NCBI RefSeq assembly: GCF_000231055.2
Contig: NZ_CM001466.1
Span: forward strand, 1,706,898 to 1,770,897
Origin: Saccharomonospora azurea NA-128
GTDB lineage: Bacteria; Actinomycetota; Actinomycetes; Mycobacteriales; Pseudonocardiaceae
Direction: 5' to 3'
Length of the DNA stretch: 64,000 bases
The notes under the pieces are model-generated. The model was not told the origin of the DNA and ran no database searches. It saw nothing but the letters and a program-made list of their open reading frames with translations. The position numbers and the translations under genes were made by a program. Positions within the stretch are counted from its first letter, which is position 1; every line of letters starts with the position of its first letter. Below are positions 4,868-55,443 of this stretch, piece after piece.

Positions 4868-7800
4868 TTATGCGGTCGCGATCGGGTATTCCTCGAGAGT
4901 CCTCGCGGGTACGATCTGCACGTTCTCGGACTCGTTGCTCGGCATGCGCTGTCCGTCTTCGATCACCCAGACCTGGTCCGAGTTCGGCGTGGTGACAAGC
5001 GTGCCGTCGCGCATCGTGTCGGGCAGCAGCATCAACGCCGAGTAGGGAACGCGCATGATCTGCTCCCACGTACGCCCGGTACCGAGGTATTCCTCCTCGT
5101 CGAGGAGAGTGATCCGCGCACCACCGACGACAAGGAACACCTCGTCCGGGTCCTCGGAGTCCGGTGCCCGTACCGCGCTGCCCTCGGGGAACTGCGGAAC
5201 GGACGGGTTCTTCGCATCCGGGTAGGACCGGAACAGCGTCTCGATACGATCCGCGGTCAACCCGCCGGTGTACAGGCGAACGTCGTCGACGGCACCCGGC
5301 CAGAATTCAGCAGGTGTACCGGCTGACTTCCCTCGACCGATCTGGAGCCCGCCGTCCGCGTCCCACGCGTTCTGAAGCGTGCCGTCACCAAGGCGCGTGC
5401 CGTTAACGTACAACCACAACTTCCCGGAATTCGCTTCATAAACGCCAACGAGATGAACCCATGTATTTACCTCGGTCTCCAACCTCGACAAGGCGGCCTT
5501 GGTGACGGTCGCCTCCTCACTGTCGGTCTCCGCCATCTCGAACACCCACGAGCCCAATCGATTCTGGCTGTCCCGGACATGCCCCAGCCGGAACTTGCTC
5601 GTGTGCGCTCCGTCCAAGCTCACCGCGGTCGTGGTACCACTCTTCTCGTCGAGCCGTACCCAGGCGGACACAGTGAAACTGCGGTCGAAACGGAGATCGG
5701 CTTCGGCAGTGGACACATGGTCGTCCACACCGTCGAGGTGAATCGCGTTGCCGGTCCGTCCCGCCCCGAACTGTGCGCCGTTGTGCAGTGTGCCGGTGCG
5801 GCCACCCATCGAGTCGGCGGTCGTGGTCCCGCCGTTTTCGTCGAGCCGCATCTCGTGGACGAGCGTGAGATCGCGGTCCGCGTGGAGGCGAATCTCGTCC
5901 TCTCGCAGTGGACGGCTGTACAGCTTAACGTCGTCGACCGCCCCGGCGAGGAAGTTCGCCCACGTCCCACCGTGTAGCGAACGACCGATGCTGACGTCGT
6001 TCATCGCGTCCCAGGCTCCGGTGGCGTCTCCTGTACCGTTGAGTGTCCCGTTGACGTACAGCAGGACTCGGCCGTCGACCGCGTTGTACACGGCGGCGAG
6101 GTGCGTCCACACTCCCGCCTGTGCCGCCTGCTGCGAGTACACCGTCACGCCTTCGGCGTTGGCGGTGTCGGAGTCGTACATCGCGATGGCGAAGCGGCCG
6201 TCCCCTCCGTACGCCAGGTCGAACCTGGCCGACTGTTCGCCGTTCTGGCTGACGATGGTCGACCACTGCGACGGCAGTTCGTCGACCTTCACCCACGTGG
6301 ACACGGAGAAGCTGTGGGAGGTGCTCACGGCGACGGGCGCACTGGCGTACTCGGTGCTGCCGTCGAGCTCGACCGCGAGATCGCCCGGATTGTGCTCGCT
6401 GGACCTGCCGGGAATCCACGACGGATACTCGCCGAGTGAACCGTGGTGTCCTGCACCCGACTCGTCCCGCGCGTTGCCGTCCAAACGCCAGTCCGATTCG
6501 ACCACGTCGTCACGGCCGATGACGCCTTCGATCTCTGCGGCGGAAACGACACGGCTGTACACCCGGACCTCGTCGAGGCTGCCGTCCCAATAGTCCACGT
6601 CCTGGCCCTGCCACCTGGCGCGGCCCATCACGAACGAGCCTGTGGCGTCCCACGTCGCGGTAACTGCACCAGTATCCGCGAGGACACCGTCGACGTAGAG
6701 AGAGACCTCGTTGTTCTTGGCGTCGAACACACCGACGAGGTGTGTCCAGACACCGGCCTGCGCTGTCCCGGGTGCGGAGTACGCGCGCCCCGCCAGCTCG
6801 CCACTCTGGTCGGGATGGAGGATCGAAAAGCTCCAGCCCGTTTCACGATGCTGCAGCAGGAACCCGCTGTTCTCCGCATCGTCCTGACTCACGGCTGTGA
6901 ACGCCCCGCCCTCAGGCGCGAGGCGATCGAGTCGCACCCACGCGGCGACGGAGAAACCGTGGTCGGTCCGCACAGCCGGACCGTCCGTGGCGACGTAGTC
7001 GTCGACCCCGTCGAGCGTCACCGCACCGTTCACGGCTCCGTCCGACACGAGCGAGGCGCCACCGCTCAGAATGGCACCACCACCACCTTCGACCTCGTTG
7101 ACGACCGTCGTTCCGAACGCCTGGTCGAATTTCCAGTGTCCGACCTGCACGTCGCCCCGACTGGCCAAGGTTTGCGCTTCGCCCGCTGTCAACGCCCGGT
7201 CGTAGACACCGACCTCGTCGATCGCGCCCTTCCAGTTGCCGAGTGGACCACCGTCCCAGTACGCCCGGCCGATCCGGAACTCACCACCGGCGTTCCAGTG
7301 GTCGCCGTACGAATCCGACCCCGAGAGCTGGCCGTTCACGTACAGCAGCACCTGCCCCTCGATGGCGTCGTAAACACCGACGAGGTGCGTCCACTCTCCT
7401 TGACGGACCCGAGTATCCGAGTTGGCGAAACCGCCGTCGCCTTCGTCGTCCAAGGCGTCCGTTCCCGGTAACGCGAACTGCCACCGGCCGTCCTCCCATG
7501 CCTGGAGCAGGAAGCCACTCCGGTGCTCACCGTCCTGGGACAACGCGGTCGAACCACCGGGAACCACCGGATCACCGTCCAAACGCACCCAGGTGGCCAC
7601 CGAGAAACTCGCATCGGTGCGGACGGCGTTGGCCGCACTGATGTCGTCGTCGACGCCGTCCAACAGTGCGGCGGCGCCCACGGCTCCGGGCCCCCACACG
7701 GGATCACCGTGCACCGATCCGTCCCGCTCACCGAGGAACGCGCCATCCTCGGCATTGCCGTCCAGCGGCCAGTGCGACGCCGGTCCGGTGCCCGCCCGGA

Positions 7801-9910
7801 CGTAGAAGTGGTAGGTCGTCATCGGGCTGCGCAGCCCCGCACGGTCCACGCTCTGCACGTAGAGATCGACCGGCCCGTCGCGCGGGGGCGTGATCACAAC
7901 GGTCGCGTCTCCACCCAGACTGTCAGCGTCCACCTTCGTCGTGGGCGGATCGGAGAAGCCGTAGACGTAGTGGTCCACGTCCTCGACACCGTCTGCTTGG
8001 AAGGTGAACTCACCCGGGACATCCACCCCGCCATGCCAGGCGTTGTCCTCCCGGTACAGAACACTCGACACGGTCGGTGCCTGGGCCGGTGCCTGTCGGT
8101 CGACCACGAATGTGGGCCCCGATCGACTTGGACCCGACAGAGCTCCGTCGCTGCCGTGGACGGACCAGCTGATGGTCTGCCCGTGTCGGTTCGTCAGGTC
8201 GAGCGGAGTGCCGAACGTCGACCCGGACGCCAGTGTCTGCTGCCGGGACATGGTCTCGCCGGTGGGCTCGGCCTTGATGTTCCATTTCGCCGTCAACTGC
8301 CCGCCGTCCGGGTCGCTCAGCTTGGCTTGGAGCGTGATCCGGTCGGAGCCGAAGTAGCGCTTTCCGTCGCACCACCGGCACGGCTCCGTGAGCGTCGGGT
8401 CCGTGGTCACCGAGGAGGGGGCGTTGGGGGCGCGATTGAACTCCACCGTCAGCTGTGGGTAGAAGTTGACACCGTTCTCCTTCTTGACGTGGAACCTCTT
8501 CCAGCCGTCGGGGTCGTTGCTGTTCTCCTCCTTGTTCCCGGCCTTGAGCCCGAACGTCACCGAATTCCAGCCCTCGTCGGCGGCTTGCTGGACCGCGCTC
8601 TCCGCGTCCATCCCCACCCAGGTGGGACCACAGGACTGGCCTGCCTTCGCCGCGGACTTCGCCTCGGCGATGTTCCGCAGCCACGCAGGTTGGCGATCCC
8701 AGGTCGTGGTCGTGCTGATGTCACCGGTGAGGTACAGGTACATCGGCTTGACAACCGCTTCGTCGCACGTGTTCGAGTTCTTCCAGACCTGGTAGATCCG
8801 AAAGTGAGCTTCCTCGATCTGTGCGCCGTCGAGCATGCTGGTGGAGAACCGGAAGAACGAGCGATCCAGGTACGCGCTCGACCACTCAGGCGCGTGCCCG
8901 ATTCGCGCCACACCCTTGTACCGCTCGTCATCATCGCGTGGCGCGAGGTTCCAGTGCGACGTCGTCGGGTGGGAGCGCCGCACCAATGTCCAGGCCGACT
9001 GCCTGGAGGTCACCGAGCTGAAGGTGGGATCGATGACGAGGGGATAGGTCACCGCTGGATCGGTGAGAAGGCTCTGGTCAGGTTCGAGGGATAAGACTCC
9101 ATCGTCGACAGTGGCCTTGACCGGCGCCTCCTTGCGTTCCGATGAGGTCGTTGCTGCACCCGTCCCCTCGGGTGTCCCTGCTGAGTCCCACATACTCGGC
9201 GCCGGTGCATGGAACACGGTGTTCCCGTCGTCGTCGACTGCCTGGATGTTCCCAACACTGTCCGAGTTGACATCGACATTCTCGGTGCGCAACGCGAGAT
9301 CGATTCGTTCCAGAGCCGGTGACCCAGCAGCCTCCGGTGTCTTCACGACGAATTCGTGGCCGAAGCCACGCGGCGTCGCACGGACCCGAAGATCGACCCC
9401 GGGGTGGATCTCTTCGTACGTCGCCGTATCACCTTCGATCGCCGGCACAGGCAGTGCCTCCGACCACTCGAGTGCCAACCGGGCGCCGTCCCGCTCGATG
9501 GTGGCGAGAATGCGATCACTGCCGCCGGAGAACGCGACGTCGACGGCCGCCGCTCGGGGCCGAACCGCACCGTCCTCGCCTACGACGAGTCCGTAGTCGG
9601 TGTCCACCCAACGTCCGTCACGCCGCGCGCGTTCGGGCACCACCGACTCCTTGAGGGTGAACGTCCCCTCGGGATTCGCCACAACCTGGGTCGTTTCGGT
9701 CGTCAACTCGGCGACCTCCACCGGCTCGCCCTGAGCGCGGGCGGCCTCCGAAGCCTCACCCAAGGGATCGGGTTCAGCCGTAGTGGCTTGGGCCGGGTGG
9801 GCGAGAGCAGCATGGCTCACCAACGGAAACGACGCGATGAACAAGGCGCTCAGTGCCACAACCACACAGGCGGGCAGCACGAAACCCGCCGATTCAGCTC
9901 GGCGCGACAT
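4868..9910 (-). CDS. Large secreted multi-LamG / DNRLRE-domain surface protein
   Basis: A protein of 1,680 residues. It has an N-terminal signal segment (MSRRAESAGF, then a long hydrophobic run ending near SHA-ALAHPAQA). A DNRLRE-type beta module lies at about residues 297-490 (TFSSVTSRQSAWTLVRR through the WDRQPAW region). Four concanavalin-A/LamG modules open with SHWPLDGNAEDG (about 713), GHWKFDQAFGTT (925), SDWRLDGNARDES (1,140) and EMRLDENGGTTT (1,353). The C-terminal 120 residues form a separate module around VFLVVGGARITL and MRVPYSALMLLP. ATG 9910 is chosen because GGAGG lies 10 bases upstream; a GTG at 9934 would sit before that site. It is the first gene of a two-gene unit with the RHS gene. 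The role is inferred as cell-surface carbohydrate or protein binding, perhaps display or delivery of the RHS protein. No catalytic motif was seen. Confidence 0.85.
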   Translation of the reverse strand: MSRRAESAGFVLPACVVVALSALFIASFPLVSHAALAHPAQATTAEPDPLGEASEAARAQGEPVEVAELTTETTQVVANPEGTFTLKESVVPERARRDGRWVDTDYGLVVGEDGAVRPRAAAVDVAFSGGSDRILATIERDGARLALEWSEALPVPAIEGDTATYEEIHPGVDLRVRATPRGFGHEFVVKTPEAAGSPALERIDLALRTENVDVNSDSVGNIQAVDDDGNTVFHAPAPSMWDSAGTPEGTGAATTSSERKEAPVKATVDDGVLSLEPDQSLLTDPAVTYPLVIDPTFSSVTSRQSAWTLVRRSHPTTSHWNLAPRDDDERYKGVARIGHAPEWSSAYLDRSFFRFSTSMLDGAQIEEAHFRIYQVWKNSNTCDEAVVKPMYLYLTGDISTTTTWDRQPAWLRNIAEAKSAAKAGQSCGPTWVGMDAESAVQQAADEGWNSVTFGLKAGNKEENSNDPDGWKRFHVKKENGVNFYPQLTVEFNRAPNAPSSVTTDPTLTEPCRWCDGKRYFGSDRITLQAKLSDPDGGQLTAKWNIKAEPTGETMSRQQTLASGSTFGTPLDLTNRHGQTISWSVHGSDGALSGPSRSGPTFVVDRQAPAQAPTVSSVLYREDNAWHGGVDVPGEFTFQADGVEDVDHYVYGFSDPPTTKVDADSLGGDATVVITPPRDGPVDLYVQSVDRAGLRSPMTTYHFYVRAGTGPASHWPLDGNAEDGAFLGERDGSVHGDPVWGPGAVGAAALLDGVDDDISAANAVRTDASFSVATWVRLDGDPVVPGGSTALSQDGEHRSGFLLQAWEDGRWQFALPGTDALDDEGDGGFANSDTRVRQGEWTHLVGVYDAIEGQVLLYVNGQLSGSDSYGDHWNAGGEFRIGRAYWDGGPLGNWKGAIDEVGVYDRALTAGEAQTLASRGDVQVGHWKFDQAFGTTVVNEVEGGGGAILSGGASLVSDGAVNGAVTLDGVDDYVATDGPAVRTDHGFSVAAWVRLDRLAPEGGAFTAVSQDDAENSGFLLQHRETGWSFSILHPDQSGELAGRAYSAPGTAQAGVWTHLVGVFDAKNNEVSLYVDGVLADTGAVTATWDATGSFVMGRARWQGQDVDYWDGSLDEVRVYSRVVSAAEIEGVIGRDDVVESDWRLDGNARDESGAGHHGSLGEYPSWIPGRSSEHNPGDLAVELDGSTEYASAPVAVSTSHSFSVSTWVKVDELPSQWSTIVSQNGEQSARFDLAYGGDGRFAIAMYDSDTANAEGVTVYSQQAAQAGVWTHLAAVYNAVDGRVLLYVNGTLNGTGDATGAWDAMNDVSIGRSLHGGTWANFLAGAVDDVKLYSRPLREDEIRLHADRDLTLVHEMRLDENGGTTTADSMGGRTGTLHNGAQFGAGRTGNAIHLDGVDDHVSTAEADLRFDRSFTVSAWVRLDEKSGTTTAVSLDGAHTSKFRLGHVRDSQNRLGSWVFEMAETDSEEATVTKAALSRLETEVNTWVHLVGVYEANSGKLWLYVNGTRLGDGTLQNAWDADGGLQIGRGKSAGTPAEFWPGAVDDVRLYTGGLTADRIETLFRSYPDAKNPSVPQFPEGSAVRAPDSEDPDEVFLVVGGARITLLDEEEYLGTGRTWEQIMRVPYSALMLLPDTMRDGTLVTTPNSDQVWVIEDGQRMPSNESENVQIVPARTLEEYPIATA

Positions 9911-40174: not shown

Positions 40175-40855
40175 ATGCCCAAGCGAGTCGACCACGCTGA
40201 ACGCCGAGCCCGGATCATCGACGCCCTCCTCCGCGTTGCCGGCCGTGAGGGGCTGGCCGCCGTGACGATGCGCGCGGTCGCCGCCGAGGCGGGCGTGTCA
40301 CTGCGCCTCGTCCAGTACTATTTCGACACGAAGGCCGACCTGCTGCACGCGGTGCTGGAGGACCTCGAACGACGCAGTCACGAGCGCTGGAACGCCCGGC
40401 TGACCGCGCTTCCCTCCGCCCCGTCGACCCGCGACCACGTTGAGCAGTTCCTCGCCGAAGCCCTCCCGACCGACGAGCCCAGCCGCGTGTTCCACCTGGT
40501 GTGGACCTCCTACGCGGTCCTCGCGATGACTGACCCCGAGCTCGCGCGTCTCCCGTTCGTCGCGGGCCCCGACCGGCTGGAGCGGCACCTCACCGAGACA
40601 CTGCGCACGGCACAGCAGCGGGGAGAGCTCGTCGCCGACACCGATCCGGCGATCGAGGCCGCCCGCCTGGTGACGCTCACGCACGGGCTCGGCACGAGCC
40701 TGCTCGTCGGGCAGCGCAGTGAGCAGGAGGCGACGGCGGTCCTGCACTACCACCTCGACCGCGTGCTGCCGCGTGTGGAGCGTGCGGATCAGCCCGCGAG
40801 GCAGGCGAGCGGGATGCCGGTGCCCTCCACGGGGTCGGCGTCCGGCGAGGTCTGA
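40175..40855 (+). CDS. TetR/AcrR-family repressor
   Basis: Encodes 226 residues. HTH: RARIIDALLRVAGREGLAAVTM, RAVAAEAGVSLRLVQYYFDTKADLL. The C-terminal ligand domain is of the TetR_C_6 type seen in BetI-like repressors (VWTSYAVLAMTDPELARLPF). AAGGGAG precedes the ATG by 4 bases. It probably represses itself and the divergent MFS operon. The last 67 bases overlap the 3' end of the opposing kinase gene, so the C-terminal tail is antisense to the kinase's CBM end. Confidence 0.93.
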   Translation: MPKRVDHAERRARIIDALLRVAGREGLAAVTMRAVAAEAGVSLRLVQYYFDTKADLLHAVLEDLERRSHERWNARLTALPSAPSTRDHVEQFLAEALPTDEPSRVFHLVWTSYAVLAMTDPELARLPFVAGPDRLERHLTETLRTAQQRGELVADTDPAIEAARLVTLTHGLGTSLLVGQRSEQEATAVLHYHLDRVLPRVERADQPARQASGMPVPSTGSASGEV

Positions 40856-42126
40856 GCCACGAAACCGAACACCGCGGTCTCCCCCTCACGCACCGCGGCG
40901 TTCCATCCCGCGTCGCGCACGCGCAACTCGTCGCCCTCCCGAGCGGCGGTGCCGTTCCAGACGTCGGTGACCTCGTGACCGCGCGGCAGCGACCAGCGCG
41001 TCGTCCACCCGACCACGCCGCCGCTACCCGGCCGGACGACGACCTCGCCCTCGTACCCACCGGCCCAGCGGCGGAGCACCCGCAGCTCCGCCACGCAGCC
41101 GGAAGGCGCGGGAAGCGCGACCGCACCACTGCGCGTCCGGTCGGCCCCGAGCGCCGAGCCCAACATCACGCCCAGCATGCCGAGCATGCCCACCGCCACG
41201 AGCACGGCCGCGACGAGTCCGGTGGCCGCGACACGTCGCGATGCGCGCTTCGCCACCCCGCCGGGAAGCGGACGCGTGCCCGCCGTCGGACTCGGCACGG
41301 TCGCGGGCTGCCCCGTGGCCACGGCGTTGAGCAGGTGGTGGACCTGTCGCATGCTCGGACGCTCGGCCGGCTCCCGGCGCAGCATCGCCAGCAGCGGGTC
41401 GCCCAACGGCCCGGCCCGTCGCAGCGGCTCGGGTGCCGCGTGCGCGATGCGCACGAGCAAGGCGATCGTGTTTCCCCTGGCCCCGAACGGGGGAATACCT
41501 TCGACCGCAAGGCACAACGTCGCACCGAGCGAGAAGACGTCCGACGCCGCCTCACCGCGGCCGCCGTCGGCGACCTCCGGTGACAGGTAGGCAGGTGTTC
41601 CGGCGATGAGGCCCCGATCGGCGACCGGCCCCACACCCTCGGCCCGCGAGATGCCGAAATCGGCGATCTTGGCGATCCCGTCGTCGGTGACGAGCACGTT
41701 GCCGGGCTTGACGTCGCAGTGCACGATGCCCTCCGCATGCGCCGCCGCGAGCGCCGAGGCCACCTGTGCCCCGATCGCGGCGACCGCGCGGGGAGGCAGC
41801 GGCCCCCGGTCGGCGACGAGTGCGGCCAGACTCCGCGAAGGAAGGAACTCCATGACGAGGAAGGGCGTGTCCTGGTCGACGACCACGTCGTGCACGGTGA
41901 CCGCGTGGGGATGGCGCAACCGGGCCGCGACGCGGCCTTCTCGCAGAGCGCGCGCCAGCACGGTCTCGGGCTTCCCGTCACCCGCCACGTCGGCGCGCAG
42001 CTGCTTGACGGCGACCACCCGATCGAGGCGCTCGTCGTGGGCCCGCCACACGACACCCATGCCGCCGCGGCCCACTCGATCCTGCAGTCGGTACCGCCCG
42101 GCGACCAGGTCACCCTCGCCGCTCAC
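40789..42126 (-). CDS. Transmembrane Ser/Thr protein kinase with extracellular CBM2-like domain
   Basis: Encodes 445 residues. Kinase domain 10-275: glycine loop GRGGMGVVW (19-27), Lys41 in VAVK, HCDVKPGN (136-143), DFG 156-158, GTPAYLSPE. The HRD Arg is Cys137, so this is a non-RD kinase. One membrane helix at about 300-325 (VAATGLVAAVLVAVGMLGML). The external 100 residues begin and end with Cys (GCVAELRVLRRWAGGYEGE ... IPLACLAG) and keep the spaced Trp residues of a family-2 carbohydrate-binding module: GWTTRWSL, DVWNG, AGWNAAV, FGF. It likely senses a polysaccharide or wall glycan and phosphorylates Ser/Thr inside. It is divergent from the MEDS-ATPase gene. Confidence 0.9.
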   Translation of the reverse strand: MSGEGDLVAGRYRLQDRVGRGGMGVVWRAHDERLDRVVAVKQLRADVAGDGKPETVLARALREGRVAARLRHPHAVTVHDVVVDQDTPFLVMEFLPSRSLAALVADRGPLPPRAVAAIGAQVASALAAAHAEGIVHCDVKPGNVLVTDDGIAKIADFGISRAEGVGPVADRGLIAGTPAYLSPEVADGGRGEAASDVFSLGATLCLAVEGIPPFGARGNTIALLVRIAHAAPEPLRRAGPLGDPLLAMLRREPAERPSMRQVHHLLNAVATGQPATVPSPTAGTRPLPGGVAKRASRRVAATGLVAAVLVAVGMLGMLGVMLGSALGADRTRSGAVALPAPSGCVAELRVLRRWAGGYEGEVVVRPGSGGVVGWTTRWSLPRGHEVTDVWNGTAAREGDELRVRDAGWNAAVREGETAVFGFVAQTSPDADPVEGTGIPLACLAG

Positions 42127-47248: not shown

Positions 47249-48457
47249 GTGACCAGGTTGGTAGCTACCACGACCGCGGCGCGGATGACCGACGCGCTCC
47301 GCAACCGCGAGTTCCGAGCCCTGTGGATCGCGGAGGCGCAGTCGGTCCTCGGCGACCACCTCACCACGGTGGCGCTGTCCATCGTCGTCTACAGCCGCAC
47401 GGGATCGGCGCTGTGGGCCGCCGGGGTGTACGCGCTCACCTTCCTGCCCGCCCTCGCGGGCGGCCTCGGGCTGTCCCAGATCGCCGACCGGTTGCCGCGC
47501 AAGACGGTGTTGGTCGCCTCCGCCGTCATCCAGGCCGTGTTCGTGGGCGCCATGGCCATCCCCGGGATGCCGCTGGCCCCTCTGTGTGTCCTCGTCGTCC
47601 TCGCCCGCCTCGCCGGCGCGCCGGCCAACGCCGCGCAGAACGCGCTCACGCGCGAGGTCTTCGCCGACGACGAGCTCTACCTCCGAAGTCAGGACCTCCG
47701 GGGCATCACGAGCAACATCGCCATGCTCATCGGACTCGCCGGGGGCGGGCTGCTGGTGACGTCGTTCGGTGCCTCGTGGGCACTGGCCATCGACGCGTTC
47801 ACGTTCCTCGTCGCCGCGTTCCTCGTGCAGATCTGGGTGCGGCAGCGGCCCGCGGCGGGCGATCCGAGCGACGGCTGGTTCAGCGCCGTGCGCTGGGTGT
47901 GGGGACAGCGGCGTCTGCGGGTGCTGCTCGCTCTGTCCTGGCTGGTCGGTCTGGCCGTCATCCCCGAGGGCCTGGCCGCTCCGCTCGCCGAACAGATCGG
48001 CGCCTCCGAACAAGCCGTCGGCTGGTTGCTCGCCGCCGACCCGGTGGGCTTCATCCTCGGCACGTTCGTGCTGTCGCGTTACGTCTCGGTCGAGAACCGC
48101 AAGCGGGTGATGGGCGTGCTGGCCACGCTCGCGGCGGCCGTCCTCATCGGTTTCGCCGCCACACCGACGTTGCCGTTCGCACTGCTGCTGCTGATGCTCG
48201 CGGGAGCCGCCGGCGCCTACATCATCACCGTGGGCGCCACGTTCATCACGTGGGTGCCCAACGACAAGCGTGGGGGCGCGGGCGGCGTCTACCGCACCGG
48301 GTTGCGAGTGGCACAGGGCCTCGGAGTCGCGCTAGGCGGTGTGGTCGCGGACCTGGTCGGTTCCGCGACCATCGCGATCGCTCTCGCGGGTGTGGCCGGA
48401 GTGGTGCTGACCATCCCCGTCGCACTCTCCTGGGCGCGCGTGCAGAAGACCGGCTGA
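47249..48457 (+). CDS. MFS transporter, 12-TM (MFS_3, EntS-like)
   Basis: Encodes 402 residues with 12 hydrophobic segments. NREFRALWIAEAQSVLGDHL is the typical N-terminus of MFS_3 exporters such as EntS; GLSQIADRLPRKTVLVAS is motif A. A central cytosolic loop (GDPSDGWFSAVRWVWGQRRL) is followed by six more helices. It probably exports a siderophore or other metabolite; no siderophore genes are near. GTG 47249 is used for the extent, but ATG 47285 gives the conserved start and leaves the TGGTAGCTACCA palindrome upstream, so 47285 may be correct. Confidence 0.87.
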   Translation: MTRLVATTTAARMTDALRNREFRALWIAEAQSVLGDHLTTVALSIVVYSRTGSALWAAGVYALTFLPALAGGLGLSQIADRLPRKTVLVASAVIQAVFVGAMAIPGMPLAPLCVLVVLARLAGAPANAAQNALTREVFADDELYLRSQDLRGITSNIAMLIGLAGGGLLVTSFGASWALAIDAFTFLVAAFLVQIWVRQRPAAGDPSDGWFSAVRWVWGQRRLRVLLALSWLVGLAVIPEGLAAPLAEQIGASEQAVGWLLAADPVGFILGTFVLSRYVSVENRKRVMGVLATLAAAVLIGFAATPTLPFALLLLMLAGAAGAYIITVGATFITWVPNDKRGGAGGVYRTGLRVAQGLGVALGGVVADLVGSATIAIALAGVAGVVLTIPVALSWARVQKTG

Positions 48458-48790: not shown

Positions 48791-48811
48791 TCAGAAGTCG
48801 CGATCGGTCAC
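48791..48811 (-). CDS. Minigene copy C: hexapeptide M-T-D-R-D-F
   Basis: GTG ACC GAT CGC GAC TTC TGA. The ribosome site is GGAGGGAGGGG; the last GGAGG ends 8 bases before the GTG. It differs from copy B by a synonymous Asp codon and Thr for Ser. It is the third and last of the series on the minus strand. Confidence 0.5.
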   Translation of the reverse strand: MTDRDF

Positions 48812-48908
48812 GATAATCCCCTCCCTCCAGCGGAACCGACGTCATGGTCGACAACGTCGAAGCGGTGTCGAACCGGAGTCGGACGAATGTCGAACGAGTA
48901 CCGAGAAA

Positions 48909-48929
48909 TCAGAAGTCGCGGTCGGACAC
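48909..48929 (-). CDS. Minigene copy B: hexapeptide M-S-D-R-D-F
   Basis: GTG TCC GAC CGC GAC TTC TGA. A ribosome site GGGGAGG ends 6 bases before the GTG, the optimal spacing. The 15 bases from Asp to stop are identical to copy A, while the surrounding sequence is unrelated. Confidence 0.5.
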   Translation of the reverse strand: MSDRDF

Positions 48930-48976
48930 GAGGCACCTCCCCAGGGTGTCGCGGTCGTCGATGTGTCAGTTCTAGG

Positions 48977-48997
48977 TCAGAAGTCGCGGTCAGACAA
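48977..48997 (-). CDS. Minigene copy A: hexapeptide M-S-D-R-D-F
   Basis: TTG TCT GAC CGC GAC TTC TGA. GGAGG ends 9 bases before the TTG. It is the first of three on the minus strand; starts of A and B are 68 bases apart, B and C 118. Confidence 0.5.
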   Translation of the reverse strand: MSDRDF

Positions 48998-49121
48998 GGG
49001 AGAACACCTCCGCTCGCGTCCGAGTTCGTGCGGACGGCGAAAACGCGTACCGAACAACACACGGCAACGACCGACACTACCGGCAAGCAGGCTCGCCTAC
49101 ACGAAATTCCGGTGCAGTGCG

Positions 49122-49127
49122 ATGATA
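49122..49127 (-). promoter_or_regulatory. Candidate -10 (TATCAT) for the minigene transcript
   Basis: TATCAT on the minus strand, about 125 bases before minigene copy A. No clear -35. It would give a leader of roughly 115 bases. Confidence 0.35.
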
Positions 49128-49240
49128 CCGATCACCGTCGATGTGCTGTTTCGTAGCGGACCGAGTCGGACCGGTCACCACAACCGGGCCGGCTCGGAAC
49201 CCACCGTCCACCTGACCGACACACGCGAGAGGACTGGCGA

Positions 49241-50626
49241 GTGCCGCTCATTCCACAGGATCGGCCATCGCCAGAAATCGTTACGTCCGAACTCCCGGGC
49301 ACGTACGCCGTGAACCGCGCAGCGCAGCCTCACACCCGTGGCGGCCGAACGCAATCGACCGACCGCCGCCAGTCGCTTCTCCCGCGGAACTGGGCCCTGT
49401 GGACGAGGCCCCGTCGCTTCGTCGTGTTCTTGCTCACGATGGAAGTCCTGGCGGTCGTGGGCTTCGCGGTGGCCTTCCTCCGGGCCCCCACGCCCGACGG
49501 CTCCGACTGGCTCGAGTTCGCCATCCTCGCTGCGGGGGCCAGCGCGCACATCCAGCTCACGCGTCGTCAGGAAGAGCGCCGGCGCAATCGCACGAAGACC
49601 GTCCTCATCGACCTCACGGCCGTGTGGGTCTTCCCCGCGACGCTCGTGCTGCCCGCGACGCTCGCGGTGCTGCTGGTGGCGCTCATCCGGGTCCAGCGCT
49701 GGTTCACCGCGCGGCGCCCGGCGCACAATTTCGTCTACTCTTCCGTCGCCCACGGGCTCGCGGCGGCGTTGGCGAACCTCAGCTACACCGCGATGTCTCC
49801 GCAGGACTGGTCCACGATGACGGCTGGCGGGTCGTTGCGGGAGTTCGGGCTGGTGCTGGTGACCGCGGCGGTGTACGAGGCGGTGCAGATCGTCTACGTC
49901 GGCGGCATCCTCGCCCTGGGCTCGACGTCGCCGACCGTGCGCACCGTGCTCGGCAGCAAGGCCGACAACCTCCTCGAGGCCATCACCACCGGGCTCGGCG
50001 CCGTCACCGCCGTGCTGGTGGTGGTCATGCCGCCGGCCGTCGCCATCATGGCGGTGGTGACGGTGGTGTTCAACCGGCTCGCGGAGATCGACCAACTCCA
50101 GGACGCCGTGGTGACCGACCCGAAGACCGGGTTGCTGAACATGCGCGGCTGGACGGAGTCCGCCGACCGCGCGTTGAACCGCATCCGCAGGGCGGGTAGC
50201 ACGCTCGCCGTGCTGATGGTGGATCTGGACCACTTCAAGTGGATCAACGACACGTTCGGGCATCCCGCGGGTGACGACGTGCTGGCGGCGGTCGCGAGCG
50301 CCCTGTCCAGTGTGACCCGGCCCGCCGACGTCGTGGGCCGGTTCGGTGGAGAGGAGTTCCTGCTGCTCCTGCCCGACGCCGACACCGCCGCCGCCGAACT
50401 CGCCGCCGAACGGGTCCGGACCACCATCGCCGGGCTGCGGATCCCCACCACGGACAAACGGGGCGCCCAGGCAACCATCAGCGGCCGCACCGCGTCCATC
50501 GGAGTAGCCACCTTCCCGCGGCACGCCGATGATCTCGACGGCCTGCTCCAGGCCGCCGACAGCGCCGTGTACGAGGCGAAGGAAGCCGGCCGCAACCGCG
50601 TCAGCTTCGCGTCCGTCCCCTCCTGA
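49241..50626 (+). CDS. Membrane diguanylate cyclase (GGDEF)
   Basis: Encodes 461 residues. About six hydrophobic segments lie between residues 50 and 285 (FVVFLLTMEVLAVVGFAVAF to AVAIMAVVTVVFN), then a GGDEF domain: DPKTGLLNMRGW, MVDLDHFKWINDTFGHPAGD, and the active-site RFGGEEFLLLLPDAD near residue 368. GGEEF is a catalytically competent variant. No RxxD inhibitory site is obvious, and no EAL domain. It makes cyclic di-GMP from GTP in response to a membrane signal; cyclic di-GMP controls development in actinobacteria through BldD. GTG start, with GAGAGGA 7 bases upstream. Confidence 0.93.
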   Translation: MPLIPQDRPSPEIVTSELPGTYAVNRAAQPHTRGGRTQSTDRRQSLLPRNWALWTRPRRFVVFLLTMEVLAVVGFAVAFLRAPTPDGSDWLEFAILAAGASAHIQLTRRQEERRRNRTKTVLIDLTAVWVFPATLVLPATLAVLLVALIRVQRWFTARRPAHNFVYSSVAHGLAAALANLSYTAMSPQDWSTMTAGGSLREFGLVLVTAAVYEAVQIVYVGGILALGSTSPTVRTVLGSKADNLLEAITTGLGAVTAVLVVVMPPAVAIMAVVTVVFNRLAEIDQLQDAVVTDPKTGLLNMRGWTESADRALNRIRRAGSTLAVLMVDLDHFKWINDTFGHPAGDDVLAAVASALSSVTRPADVVGRFGGEEFLLLLPDADTAAAELAAERVRTTIAGLRIPTTDKRGAQATISGRTASIGVATFPRHADDLDGLLQAADSAVYEAKEAGRNRVSFASVPS

Positions 50627-50692: not shown

Positions 50693-52924
50693 ATGACACG
50701 GGGAATCTCCCCCTGTAACCCTGTCCCCATGCCCGTCCACCGCTCCCCGAACGCGCGTCGACGGACAACGGGTGGCATCGCGCGCCTCCTGCTGCTGGTT
50801 CTCCTGGTCACCGGCTTCGGCGTCGTCGCGTCGCGCTCCGAGGCGACGCCCACGCCCGGTCCGACGGACCCGGCCACCGCCGATGCGGCACGGGCGATCG
50901 ACGCCCTGCTCGACCCGCAACGATCGGCCCGGGCAGTGGAACTGCTGCCTCCCGACTTCGCGGCGGTGACCAACGTCGAGGTCGGGACCCAACGCGCACT
51001 GGACGGCACCGTGCGCGCCGTCCACGTCGGCGGTGGGTGCTCCGCGCCGTGGGGCGACGACAGCACGCGGTGGGACTTCGGCACGCCGTGCCGTTCGCAC
51101 GACCTCGGCTACGACCTGTTGCGGTACGCGGAGAAGAAGGGCAGTCCCCTCGGCGCCGACGTGCGGGAGGCGCTCGACGATCGGCTGTCGGCGGACATGT
51201 ACGCCACCTGCGAGCACAACCCGAAGGGCACACCCGGCCTGTGCCGCAGCGTCGCCGGGATCTACACGGCCGGGCTGGTGGTCAACTCCTGGCACCAGAG
51301 GTGGGGACCGCCGGTGGGCGAGCCCCTGCTCCCGCTGCTGTCCGGGGTCGCGGTGATCGGCCTGCTGCTCTGGCACCGGCTCCGCGACCGGGTCCGGCAC
51401 GCGACGGTCGCGTCGGCCGAGGCCGCCGAGGCGCCGCGTCCGGGTCGACGGGACCGCCGGCTGTCGAGCATCGTGCCCGCCACACCCTGGACGCTGCTGG
51501 GAGTCGGCAGCGTGGTCGTCCTCATCCTGGGCGAGTCGGCGGTGGCTCTGGCGCGCTGGGCGGGTGTGGCCGAGCAGTGGTTGTGGCCACTGACCTGGCC
51601 CGCGCAGGCGGCGGTGGTGTTCTTCTTCGCCGCGGGGCACAGGAACGCCACCGCGTGGGCCGAGACGAGACGCACGGGCGGCGGGCTCCGGGACTACCTG
51701 GCACACCGGGGCAGTTGGTTGTTGCGGCTGACCCTGGTGTTCGCGGTGGTCGCCTTCTCGGTGCCGCTCGCTCTGGAGCTGCTCCACGTTCCGGCGACGA
51801 CCGTGGAGGGAGTCGTGCGGGTGGCGCTGCACCCGCTGTGGCTGCTCGGTCTCTACCTGGTGACGGTCGTTCTCACGCCGCTGCTGCAGGCGCTGCACCG
51901 GCGCGCGCCCCGCGCTACGCCGCTCGCACTGGCGCTGGCGCTCGCCGGCGCCGAGTGGCTCGGCACGCTCACCACCTCGCCGTGGTCCGGCCACGTGAGC
52001 TCCCTCGCGCTGGCGCTGCTGGCGCAGCAGGCGGCTCTCGCCCACCGCGACGGCTTCACGCCGTCCCGCCGACAGCTCGGGCTCGCGACCGCGGCCGGAC
52101 TCGGGGCGCTGGTGCTCGGCGTGACGACCGGAGCGTTGCCGCTCGCCGCCCTCGGCGTGAACGGCGCCCCTCCGGCACTGGCCGGTCCGGCGACCTCGGT
52201 CCTCCTCGTCGGCGTCGTTCACGTCGCCGTCCTGGGGTTGGTGCGGACCCGGCTCCAGCCCCTCGTGTGCCGGCCGGCCGTGTTGCGGCTCGTCGGTCTG
52301 GCCTCCCGCGCCCCGATGAGTCTCTACCTGCTCTACCTCACGGCCGTGCTGCTGCTGGTGAGCGCGGTCTACCTGCCCCGCCGCCTCTGGCCCGCACTCG
52401 GTTCGCTGTCCGTTCCGCCCCGGGCCCTGCTCGCCGTCGCGCTGCTCGTCGGTCCCGCCGTGGTCGTGTTCGTCTGGATCGAACGCCACCTCTGGCACAG
52501 ACCACCACCGGTCCCGGTGTGGGATCACGCGCGAACCGGGCTCGACCGGGTCCTGTCGCACGGTGCGACGCTCGCCGGATTCGGCTTCGCCGTCCTCGGT
52601 GTCTTCGGCTTCGCCCGGACCACACTGGGCACCGAGAACGCCGACCTCTCCGGGGTGCTGCTCGATCCCGTGCAGAGCCTGGTGCACCTACTGCTGGGCG
52701 TCACGTTGTTGCACAGCGTCCGCACCGGGACCACCAACACGCCGCGAACCTGGCTGCTCGCGGCGATGGCCTGCATCCCGCCGTTGCTGTCGGTGACCGC
52801 GACTCCCGCACCCGAGTCCGTGGGCGTGGTGGTGCACACCGCCACGTGCGTTCTCGTCGCCGCGGCCGCCGCCACCACGACGGCGACCGCCCTCGCCTCC
52901 CTCGGCCGGGGGGCGCGCACGTGA
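50693..52924 (+). CDS. Secreted phospholipase A2 domain fused to a multi-helix membrane (acyltransferase-like) domain
   Basis: Encodes 743 residues. After a signal segment (RLLLLVLLVTGFGVVASRSE) comes a prokaryotic phospholipase A2 domain, about residues 60-205: calcium loop GGCSAPWGDD, catalytic Cys-x-x-His-Asp at 133-137 (CRSHDLGYD), and paired Cys in YATCEHNPKG and LCRSVAG. From residue 215 there are about 12 hydrophobic segments; the core (VVFFFAAGHRNATAW, GGLRDYLAHRGSWLLRLTLVF) resembles acyltransferase-3 family membrane proteins. The last 130 residues form a four-helix unit like DUF4383. ATG 50693 has GGAG 7 bases upstream; ATG 50729 is an alternative. The fusion suggests lipid hydrolysis outside coupled to acyl transfer or sensing. 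Confidence 0.78.
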   Translation: MTRGISPCNPVPMPVHRSPNARRRTTGGIARLLLLVLLVTGFGVVASRSEATPTPGPTDPATADAARAIDALLDPQRSARAVELLPPDFAAVTNVEVGTQRALDGTVRAVHVGGGCSAPWGDDSTRWDFGTPCRSHDLGYDLLRYAEKKGSPLGADVREALDDRLSADMYATCEHNPKGTPGLCRSVAGIYTAGLVVNSWHQRWGPPVGEPLLPLLSGVAVIGLLLWHRLRDRVRHATVASAEAAEAPRPGRRDRRLSSIVPATPWTLLGVGSVVVLILGESAVALARWAGVAEQWLWPLTWPAQAAVVFFFAAGHRNATAWAETRRTGGGLRDYLAHRGSWLLRLTLVFAVVAFSVPLALELLHVPATTVEGVVRVALHPLWLLGLYLVTVVLTPLLQALHRRAPRATPLALALALAGAEWLGTLTTSPWSGHVSSLALALLAQQAALAHRDGFTPSRRQLGLATAAGLGALVLGVTTGALPLAALGVNGAPPALAGPATSVLLVGVVHVAVLGLVRTRLQPLVCRPAVLRLVGLASRAPMSLYLLYLTAVLLLVSAVYLPRRLWPALGSLSVPPRALLAVALLVGPAVVVFVWIERHLWHRPPPVPVWDHARTGLDRVLSHGATLAGFGFAVLGVFGFARTTLGTENADLSGVLLDPVQSLVHLLLGVTLLHSVRTGTTNTPRTWLLAAMACIPPLLSVTATPAPESVGVVVHTATCVLVAAAAATTTATALASLGRGART

Positions 52925-54972: not shown

Positions 54973-55443
54973 GTGTTGATCGACAACGACGCCTACCAAC
55001 GCATCCTCGGCGAGGAGCTCCGCAAACTGAGAACCGAGCGCGGCTGGACGCGCAAGGAGCTCGGCGAGCGACTGCAGAGCGGCATCTCGCTGCAGACGCT
55101 CGCCACCTACGAACTGGGCACGCGGCAGTGCTCCGTCGTGCGGCTCGCCGAACTCTGCCTCGCCCTGGGGGAACTGCCGCAGAACCTGCTCGCGCGCGTG
55201 CACGATCGGCTGTTCGACCAGGAAGCCGACAAGGTGCGGGTCGACCTGGCCGACGTCGTGTCGGACGATCAGCCCGAACTGCTCCCCCTGCGGCGCTGGG
55301 CCCGCGGCAGACTGGCCGCGGGCGGGTCCAGCGACGTGCGGTTCGACAGGGCCACGCTGGAGCAACTCGCGTCGCTGTGCGACCTGCGCACCGACGAACT
55401 CCTCACGCGGCTGAGGAAGCTGTCGGCGACGACGACGCTTTAG
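54973..55443 (+). CDS. BldD-like XRE-family regulator
   Basis: Encodes 156 residues. HTH at about 10-70: GEELRKLRTERGWTRKELGE, SGISLQTLATYELGTRQCSV, RLAELCLALGELPQNLL. The C-terminal half (VRVDLADVVSDDQPELLPLR, RWARGRLAAGGSSDVRFDRA) is laid out like the BldD ligand domain. The RGD-x8-RQDD cyclic-di-GMP signature of BldD is not present (GGSSDVRFDRATLE at that place), so ligand control probably differs. GTG start with GGGGA 5 bases upstream. A diguanylate cyclase gene is 4.4 kb upstream. The 3' end overlaps the opposing monooxygenase gene by 41 bases. Confidence 0.75.
   Translation: MLIDNDAYQRILGEELRKLRTERGWTRKELGERLQSGISLQTLATYELGTRQCSVVRLAELCLALGELPQNLLARVHDRLFDQEADKVRVDLADVVSDDQPELLPLRRWARGRLAAGGSSDVRFDRATLEQLASLCDLRTDELLTRLRKLSATTTL

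Follow-up and report, generated by a model that had tools for sequence, protein, structure and literature searches.

Leaderless communication peptides (LCPs) of the SIP-RopB type, found in Streptococcus pyogenes and Firmicutes relatives, are mostly 8-10 residues long and hydrophobic, and their receptor is a TPR transcription factor, as far as these systems are set out in PMC10518010. Biarylitides (bytA/bytO) are outlined in PMC8708641 as products of a five-codon precursor open reading frame (ORF) with an adjacent cytochrome P450, for which Tyr/His-type cross-linking residues are required. The two-codon minigene mg2 of axe-txe acts in cis on a downstream gene, and minigene toxicity via peptidyl-tRNA drop-off is discussed in the same account (PMC8708949). 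Here we describe three tandem six-codon minigenes in Saccharomonospora azurea NA-128, located in a stretch of 64,000 nucleotides (contig NZ_CM001466.1, positions 1,706,898 to 1,770,897; hereafter the window) between genes for a major facilitator superfamily (MFS) transporter and a membrane GGDEF diguanylate cyclase. From sequence comparison with relatives, these minigenes are almost certainly translated genes whose amino-acid sequence is under selection.

The locus shares with LCPs, as described in the above source, an ultrashort leaderless ORF that is preceded by a Shine-Dalgarno (SD) sequence, lies beside a presumed receptor gene and carries lineage-specific codes. It differs in that the peptides have 5-8 residues, are often charged or polar, are encoded in 2-18 separate copies and occur in Actinomycetes. 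The neighbours here are a membrane diguanylate cyclase and an MFS protein, with no adjacent HTH-TPR receptor of the RopB/Rgg type; the sole HTH protein among the scanned neighbours (54973-55443) has no TPR match and lies about 4 kb away. Because receptor family, peptide chemistry, multi-copy layout and taxon all differ, the array system was not assigned to the LCPs. With the biarylitides, as they are portrayed in PMC8708641, it has in common an actinomycete ORF of very few codons, there only five, whereas no P450 is adjacent here, the peptide M-x-D-R-D-F lacks Tyr and His, and the constant partner is another one. The likeness to mg2, as presented in its source, is limited to a very short translated ORF; in the present arrays the amino acids are conserved, and the MFS gene that usually flanks them is convergent rather than downstream on the same transcript. 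Known membrane-anchored diguanylate cyclases have the same full GGDEF domain with a GGEEF motif, but the membrane domain of the present protein has no Pfam family match and is paired with a minigene array. No description of such a minigene-GGDEF locus was found in the open-licence literature in PMC (subscription papers and preprints being outside this scope), and the system is apparently undescribed in actinobacteria. Genes of six codons generally fall below the size considered by annotation, so that coding sequences of this kind could be overlooked even when they recur in many actinobacterial genera.

The minigene array and selection on its peptides

All three minigenes are on the minus strand. 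Minigene 1 (48977..48997) reads TTG TCT GAC CGC GAC TTC TGA (M-S-D-R-D-F) and follows a GGAGG site at 49011-49007 with a spacer of 9 nucleotides (nt); minigene 2 (48909..48929) reads GTG TCC GAC CGC GAC TTC TGA (M-S-D-R-D-F), with GGAGG at 48940-48936 and a spacer of 6; minigene 3 (48791..48811) reads GTG ACC GAT CGC GAC TTC TGA (M-T-D-R-D-F), with GGAGG at 48824-48820 and a spacer of 8. An earlier reading from the sequence alone had proposed exactly these minigenes with GGAGG at 6-9 nt, and every one was found where it had placed them. The array sits in a gap of 783 nt between the MFS gene (47285-48457, plus strand), which points toward it, and the GGDEF gene (49241-50626, plus strand), which points away. 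These flanking genes, which define the locus, were absent from the sequence-only reading.

A chance repeat was ruled out by shuffle counts, the genome-wide pattern count and scans of control sequence. The shared 15-mer, allowing at most 2 mismatches, had three matches in the window, all at 48791-48997; 100 shuffles averaged 0.36 matches, and three were reached in none of them. A degenerate hexapeptide pattern matched exactly three times in the 4.76 Mb genome, each time at the array (reversed control 0). Among SD-preceded ORFs of 4-8 codons on the two window strands (14 and 21 found) these minigenes formed the sole array, and 604,920 bases of control sequence with 129 SD-minigenes contained none. 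No second genomic copy of the 784-nt intergenic stretch holding the minigenes was found, and an Rfam scan of the window returned three tRNAs only.

The S/T-D-R-D-F pattern, which the sequence-only reading had suggested looking for in related genomes, is present in 25 of 297 genomes of the family and 7 of its 46 genera (50 matches; none with the reversed control). By position, 49 of the 50 adjoin a GGDEF gene, and the order GGDEF gene, array, MFS gene is common to 20 of 21 compared loci. The sole exception, L052 (G064:C1:2646334), is a single SD-preceded MSDRDF ORF off the GGDEF locus, probably due to chance, in a genome that also carries a syntenic array. Across 20 loci there are 64 family-like ORFs, of which a few are decayed or doubtful; S, T, R, A, N or Y can stand at position 2, and D-R-D-F is kept. 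Minigene 1 has an orthologous copy in all eight aligned Saccharomonospora-type loci. A stricter SD pattern, applied to a collection of named organisms, was found on 19 contigs, from Prauserella (7), Saccharomonospora (3), Amycolatopsis (3), Thermocrispum (2), Haloechinothrix (2), an Actinomycetes metagenome-assembled genome (1) and a Lachnospiraceae one (1), the single match in the last being probably chance.

Regions upstream of homologous GGDEF genes were taken from the top-scoring matches and read over no more than 1650 nt; 8 of the 162 were duplicates, which leaves 154 distinct regions that are not a random sample. Arrays of at least two copies occur in 111 of them, with 2-18 copies per array and 525 copies in total; both totals include array L225, which was counted with four out-of-frame MCDA reads and is partly a calling artefact. 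From one start codon to the next the median distance is 72 nt (quartiles 66 and 77), and no array was present on the opposite strand of all 162 regions, duplicates included.

Of 352 pairs of adjacent copies, the coding comparison used the 294 in which the identity of the downstream spacers does not exceed 60%. From codon 3 to the last codon these pairs show 211 synonymous and 10 nonsynonymous differences, and nucleotide differences by codon position number 22, 20 and 207. Codon 2 is unconstrained (80 synonymous, 87 nonsynonymous); 82 pairs have unlike start codons and 25 have unlike stop codons. The coding-conservation pattern that had been read from three copies is thus strongly supported by the relatives. 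The few deviating copies stand mostly at array ends (8 of 178 terminal copies, 2 of 297 internal ones). As a check on the array caller, 525 of the 549 SD-minigenes inside array spans are members, and several of the other 24 overlap members in another frame.

In the GRDF and GRDY arrays the Gly residue is coded by GGC, GGT, GGG and GGA and spacer identities are mostly 0.16-0.44; since codons vary and spacers are dissimilar, gene conversion of whole units is not a simple cause of the uniformity there. Recent duplication is plain in L204 and in parts of L214. Arrays offer natural replicates, in which up to 18 copies of one codon string are maintained by selection while spacers and codons drift, with apparent residue switches across whole arrays. 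An antisense protein as the real product was ruled out in general, as copy spacings are not multiples of three outside genus g45.

Peptide types and the linked genes

Besides DRDF, arrays in the family encode SGRDF/TGRDF/AGRDF, SSRDF (10 copies, L081), SNRDF, SDRAW, SDRDW, SDREA or RDREA (11 copies called, L149), MIRDW, xVRDW, NRDS, SDKGW and SRDW/RSRDW (up to 18 copies, L169). Other families of the order have NNWSW, NNHGW, SNHGW, NNVTWR, NVWDW, RGWHWTR, TVVNWS, SNWGWGK and REKIW, and other families of the class RDNTWT, RDNNWN, RDTTWS, RANSWD, RDNHWTP and others. A few starts were called one codon early (e.g. MMSNRDL), so that the number of distinct peptides is about 40. At the last four residues, mismatches make up 168 of 6636 comparisons (2.5%) within arrays and 15434 of 24420 (63%) between arrays, and the majority peptide contains W, F or Y in 97 of the 111 arrays.

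The peptide type tracks the GGDEF gene in a FastTree of 99 GGDEF proteins, in which the deep forks are weak; on this tree D and G seem to have replaced one another at residue 3 on more than one occasion. The first copies in L043 and L044 are decayed G-type minigenes (MSGRNF, MSGCDF) ahead of D-type copies, possibly a relic of an earlier G-type array. Four genomes (G290, G238, G081, G028) carry two GGDEF paralogues, each with its own, different peptide, and each paralogue groups on the tree with the same-peptide gene of another genome. All 33 matches to the RDNTWT pattern in 246 genomes of the class lie in arrays adjoining a GGDEF gene.

The gene at 49241..50626 (plus strand), for which we propose a role as receptor and effector, encodes a membrane GGDEF diguanylate cyclase with a multi-transmembrane domain and a GGEEF motif (Pfam PF00990, with synteny, models and fold matches); the catalytic GG[DE]EF motif is intact in 86 of 86 homologues. 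Against Pfam the membrane domain gave no family match, only weak scattered ones. As the full-length model reached a predicted template modelling score of 0.44, the sensor part was modelled alone, and this model appears, with moderate support, to resemble the ligand-binding subunits of ECF transporters (S-components, a six-helix fold). A phylum-wide search with the GGDEF protein matched, besides its own genome, 1 of 198 genomes, through the GGDEF domain alone, and a plasmid collection gave no match.

The MFS gene (47285..48457, plus strand; MFS_1/MFS_3, with EntS-like matches below the NCBIfam curated cut-offs) is proposed, with support from synteny, to encode a peptide exporter. An MFS gene is present in 104 of the 154 regions and convergent in 103 of these. 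Among 20 wider neighbourhoods from distant lineages it occurs in 15, being convergent in 11, downstream in the array direction in three (g45) and beyond the GGDEF gene in one. Only the GGDEF and MFS genes recur between families in these neighbourhoods, in which a subset of the neighbours was annotated.

A proposed ligand role and its rivals

The three minigenes are predicted to be transcribed together from a promoter between the array and the divergent GGDEF gene. A conserved box, GGTATCATCGCAC (49117..49129, minus strand), lies about 120 nt before minigene 1 and contains TATCAT at 49127-49122; the box GGTATCATCTCACCGCA or a close variant recurs on the minigene strand between GGDEF start and first copy in the aligned Pseudonocardiaceae genera, while family f34 has a conserved GACAAT. 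Judged from sequence, the TATCAT box is the probable -10 region of the array promoter, and GACAAT likewise a probable -10 element in f34. A terminator scan gave two terminator-like sites against 0.6 expected, one overlapping minigene 2. On the comparative coding evidence each minigene is translated separately into a six-residue peptide, and the high copy number presumably increases the amount of a single peptide. This peptide may be a ligand, specific to the lineage, that the membrane domain of the adjacent cyclase binds, a role suggested by the exclusive linkage, by a peptide type that follows the GGDEF gene rather than the genome, and by the S-component-like fold. It would probably be exported by the adjacent MFS protein and so report on like cells, and binding would alter the synthesis of cyclic di-GMP (c-di-GMP), with effects on development or physiology.

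This mechanism, a peptide ligand of the linked cyclase with likely MFS export, is the best supported, and we regard it as moderately likely. More tentatively, and with rather less confidence, the loci might form a new class of peptide communication in the class Actinomycetes, in which tandem, independently translated minigenes of 5-8 codons are multi-copy pheromone genes with lineage-specific codes, a dedicated MFS exporter and an S-component-like membrane domain that directly drives c-di-GMP synthesis, so that peptide code and second messenger would meet in one protein. In antibiotic-producing actinomycetes c-di-GMP controls development. If the peptides are ligands of the cyclase, they would be the first candidate input for a membrane diguanylate cyclase family of these organisms, and the peptide code would be readable from DNA and testable with synthetic peptides. 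Of the functions put forward in the sequence-only reading, signal peptides fit best, because the peptides are uniform within an array, lineage-specific and tied to one receptor-like partner gene; modified peptides of the P450 type are not supported, the nearest P450 in this genome being about 260 kb away, and regulation by ribosome drop-off is disfavoured.

Several observations weigh against this ligand mechanism or the evidence for it. The caller requires three of the last four residues to be alike, so the nonsynonymous count is bounded. Residue 2 varies freely, so that copies of the same array have unlike N-termini, something that a simple pheromone need not tolerate. No MFS gene lies in the stretch read in 50 of the 154 regions, nor in 5 of the 20 wider neighbourhoods; by eye, about 29 of the 154 regions have one similar minigene and 14 no recognisable one. 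A scan for sigma-70 -35/-10 promoters found no promoter-like site. The Foldseek similarity of the membrane domain to ECF S-components is weak, with no E-value below 0.001, and helical bundles reach middling Z-scores by chance.

It is unlikely, though the strongest of the rivals, that the peptides act inside the producer, where a nascent or free (formyl-)peptide would be a small regulator bound by the linked cyclase on its cytosolic face, or by some other target, and the MFS protein would move something else. Such a role would suit the absence of an encoded leader or signal sequence, the shortness and frequent charge of the peptides, and the lack of a nearby MFS gene in several systems; a lineage-specific switch in all copies at once would, however, be more expected of an intercellular code, and the MFS gene is linked in three different arrangements.

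Still less probable is that translation itself matters, with the array acting as a sink for ribosomes or tRNA, or as an antisense or dual-function RNA, and the peptide as by-product. Every called copy has a strong SD, and Arg is coded by CGC or CGT in 580 of 589 array cases vs 118 of 247 in seven window genes, a bias that could be codon optimisation, as in highly expressed genes, or reflect an RNA constraint. The g45 arrangement also fits: there the strand opposite the array carries an open frame that joins the GGDEF gene without a break. Residues are kept while codons change, however, to the point that the last codon swaps synonyms (ACC/ACG, L208), and the amino acid varies between lineages and not within arrays. 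RNAalifold on eight Saccharomonospora-type sequences, a weak test because all are close relatives, gave no covariation support (covariation term +0.54; two-sided change in 4 of 61 pairs). Most regions lack a co-directional gene behind the array that could be a target of cis regulation, and stops are mostly TGA, not the UAA said to favour drop-off in the part of the minigene literature covered.

The weakest rival, that the minigenes are precursors of a modified product, akin to ribosomally synthesised and post-translationally modified peptides, exported by the MFS protein and processed by an enzyme encoded elsewhere, is improbable: it draws on the aromatic residue of most majority peptides, on the short precursor minigenes known from biarylitides as PMC8708641 presents them and on the weak similarity of the MFS protein to the siderophore exporter EntS, but the nearest of 13 P450 matches in the genome is about 260 kb from the array, no modifying enzyme recurs across families among the annotated genes of the 20 neighbourhoods, and the constant partner is a cyclase, not a peptide-acting enzyme.

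Variant loci and neighbouring genes

In genus g45 (L164-L172, L174, L175, L177) the opposite frame is free of stops in 12 of 12 arrays and the copy spacings are multiples of three in 136 of 136 cases. GC by codon position in this frame is about 0.7/0.66/0.65, with no usual third-position bias; the array may lie inside a 5' extension of the GGDEF coding sequence. Loci of the Prauserella group g33 (L141, L145, L146, L147, L085) carry just one minigene (MRDRDF or MFDRDF), the stretch read contains no MFS gene, and array and transporter seem to have been lost together. In L247, a locus without an MFS gene, the SNWGWGK array is followed in the same direction by a gene for a GGDEF-EAL protein (6616-7908); in four f34 loci another member of this protein cluster is encoded a few kb off, and the one scanned is GAF-GGDEF-EAL.

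Downstream of the GGDEF gene in the window, an order kept in most syntenic loci, the gene at 50693-52924 (plus strand) encodes a long multi-transmembrane protein with a prokaryotic phospholipase A2 domain at its N-terminus. Further away, one ORF at 40789-42126 (minus strand) combines a protein kinase domain with a CBM_2 cellulose-binding domain.
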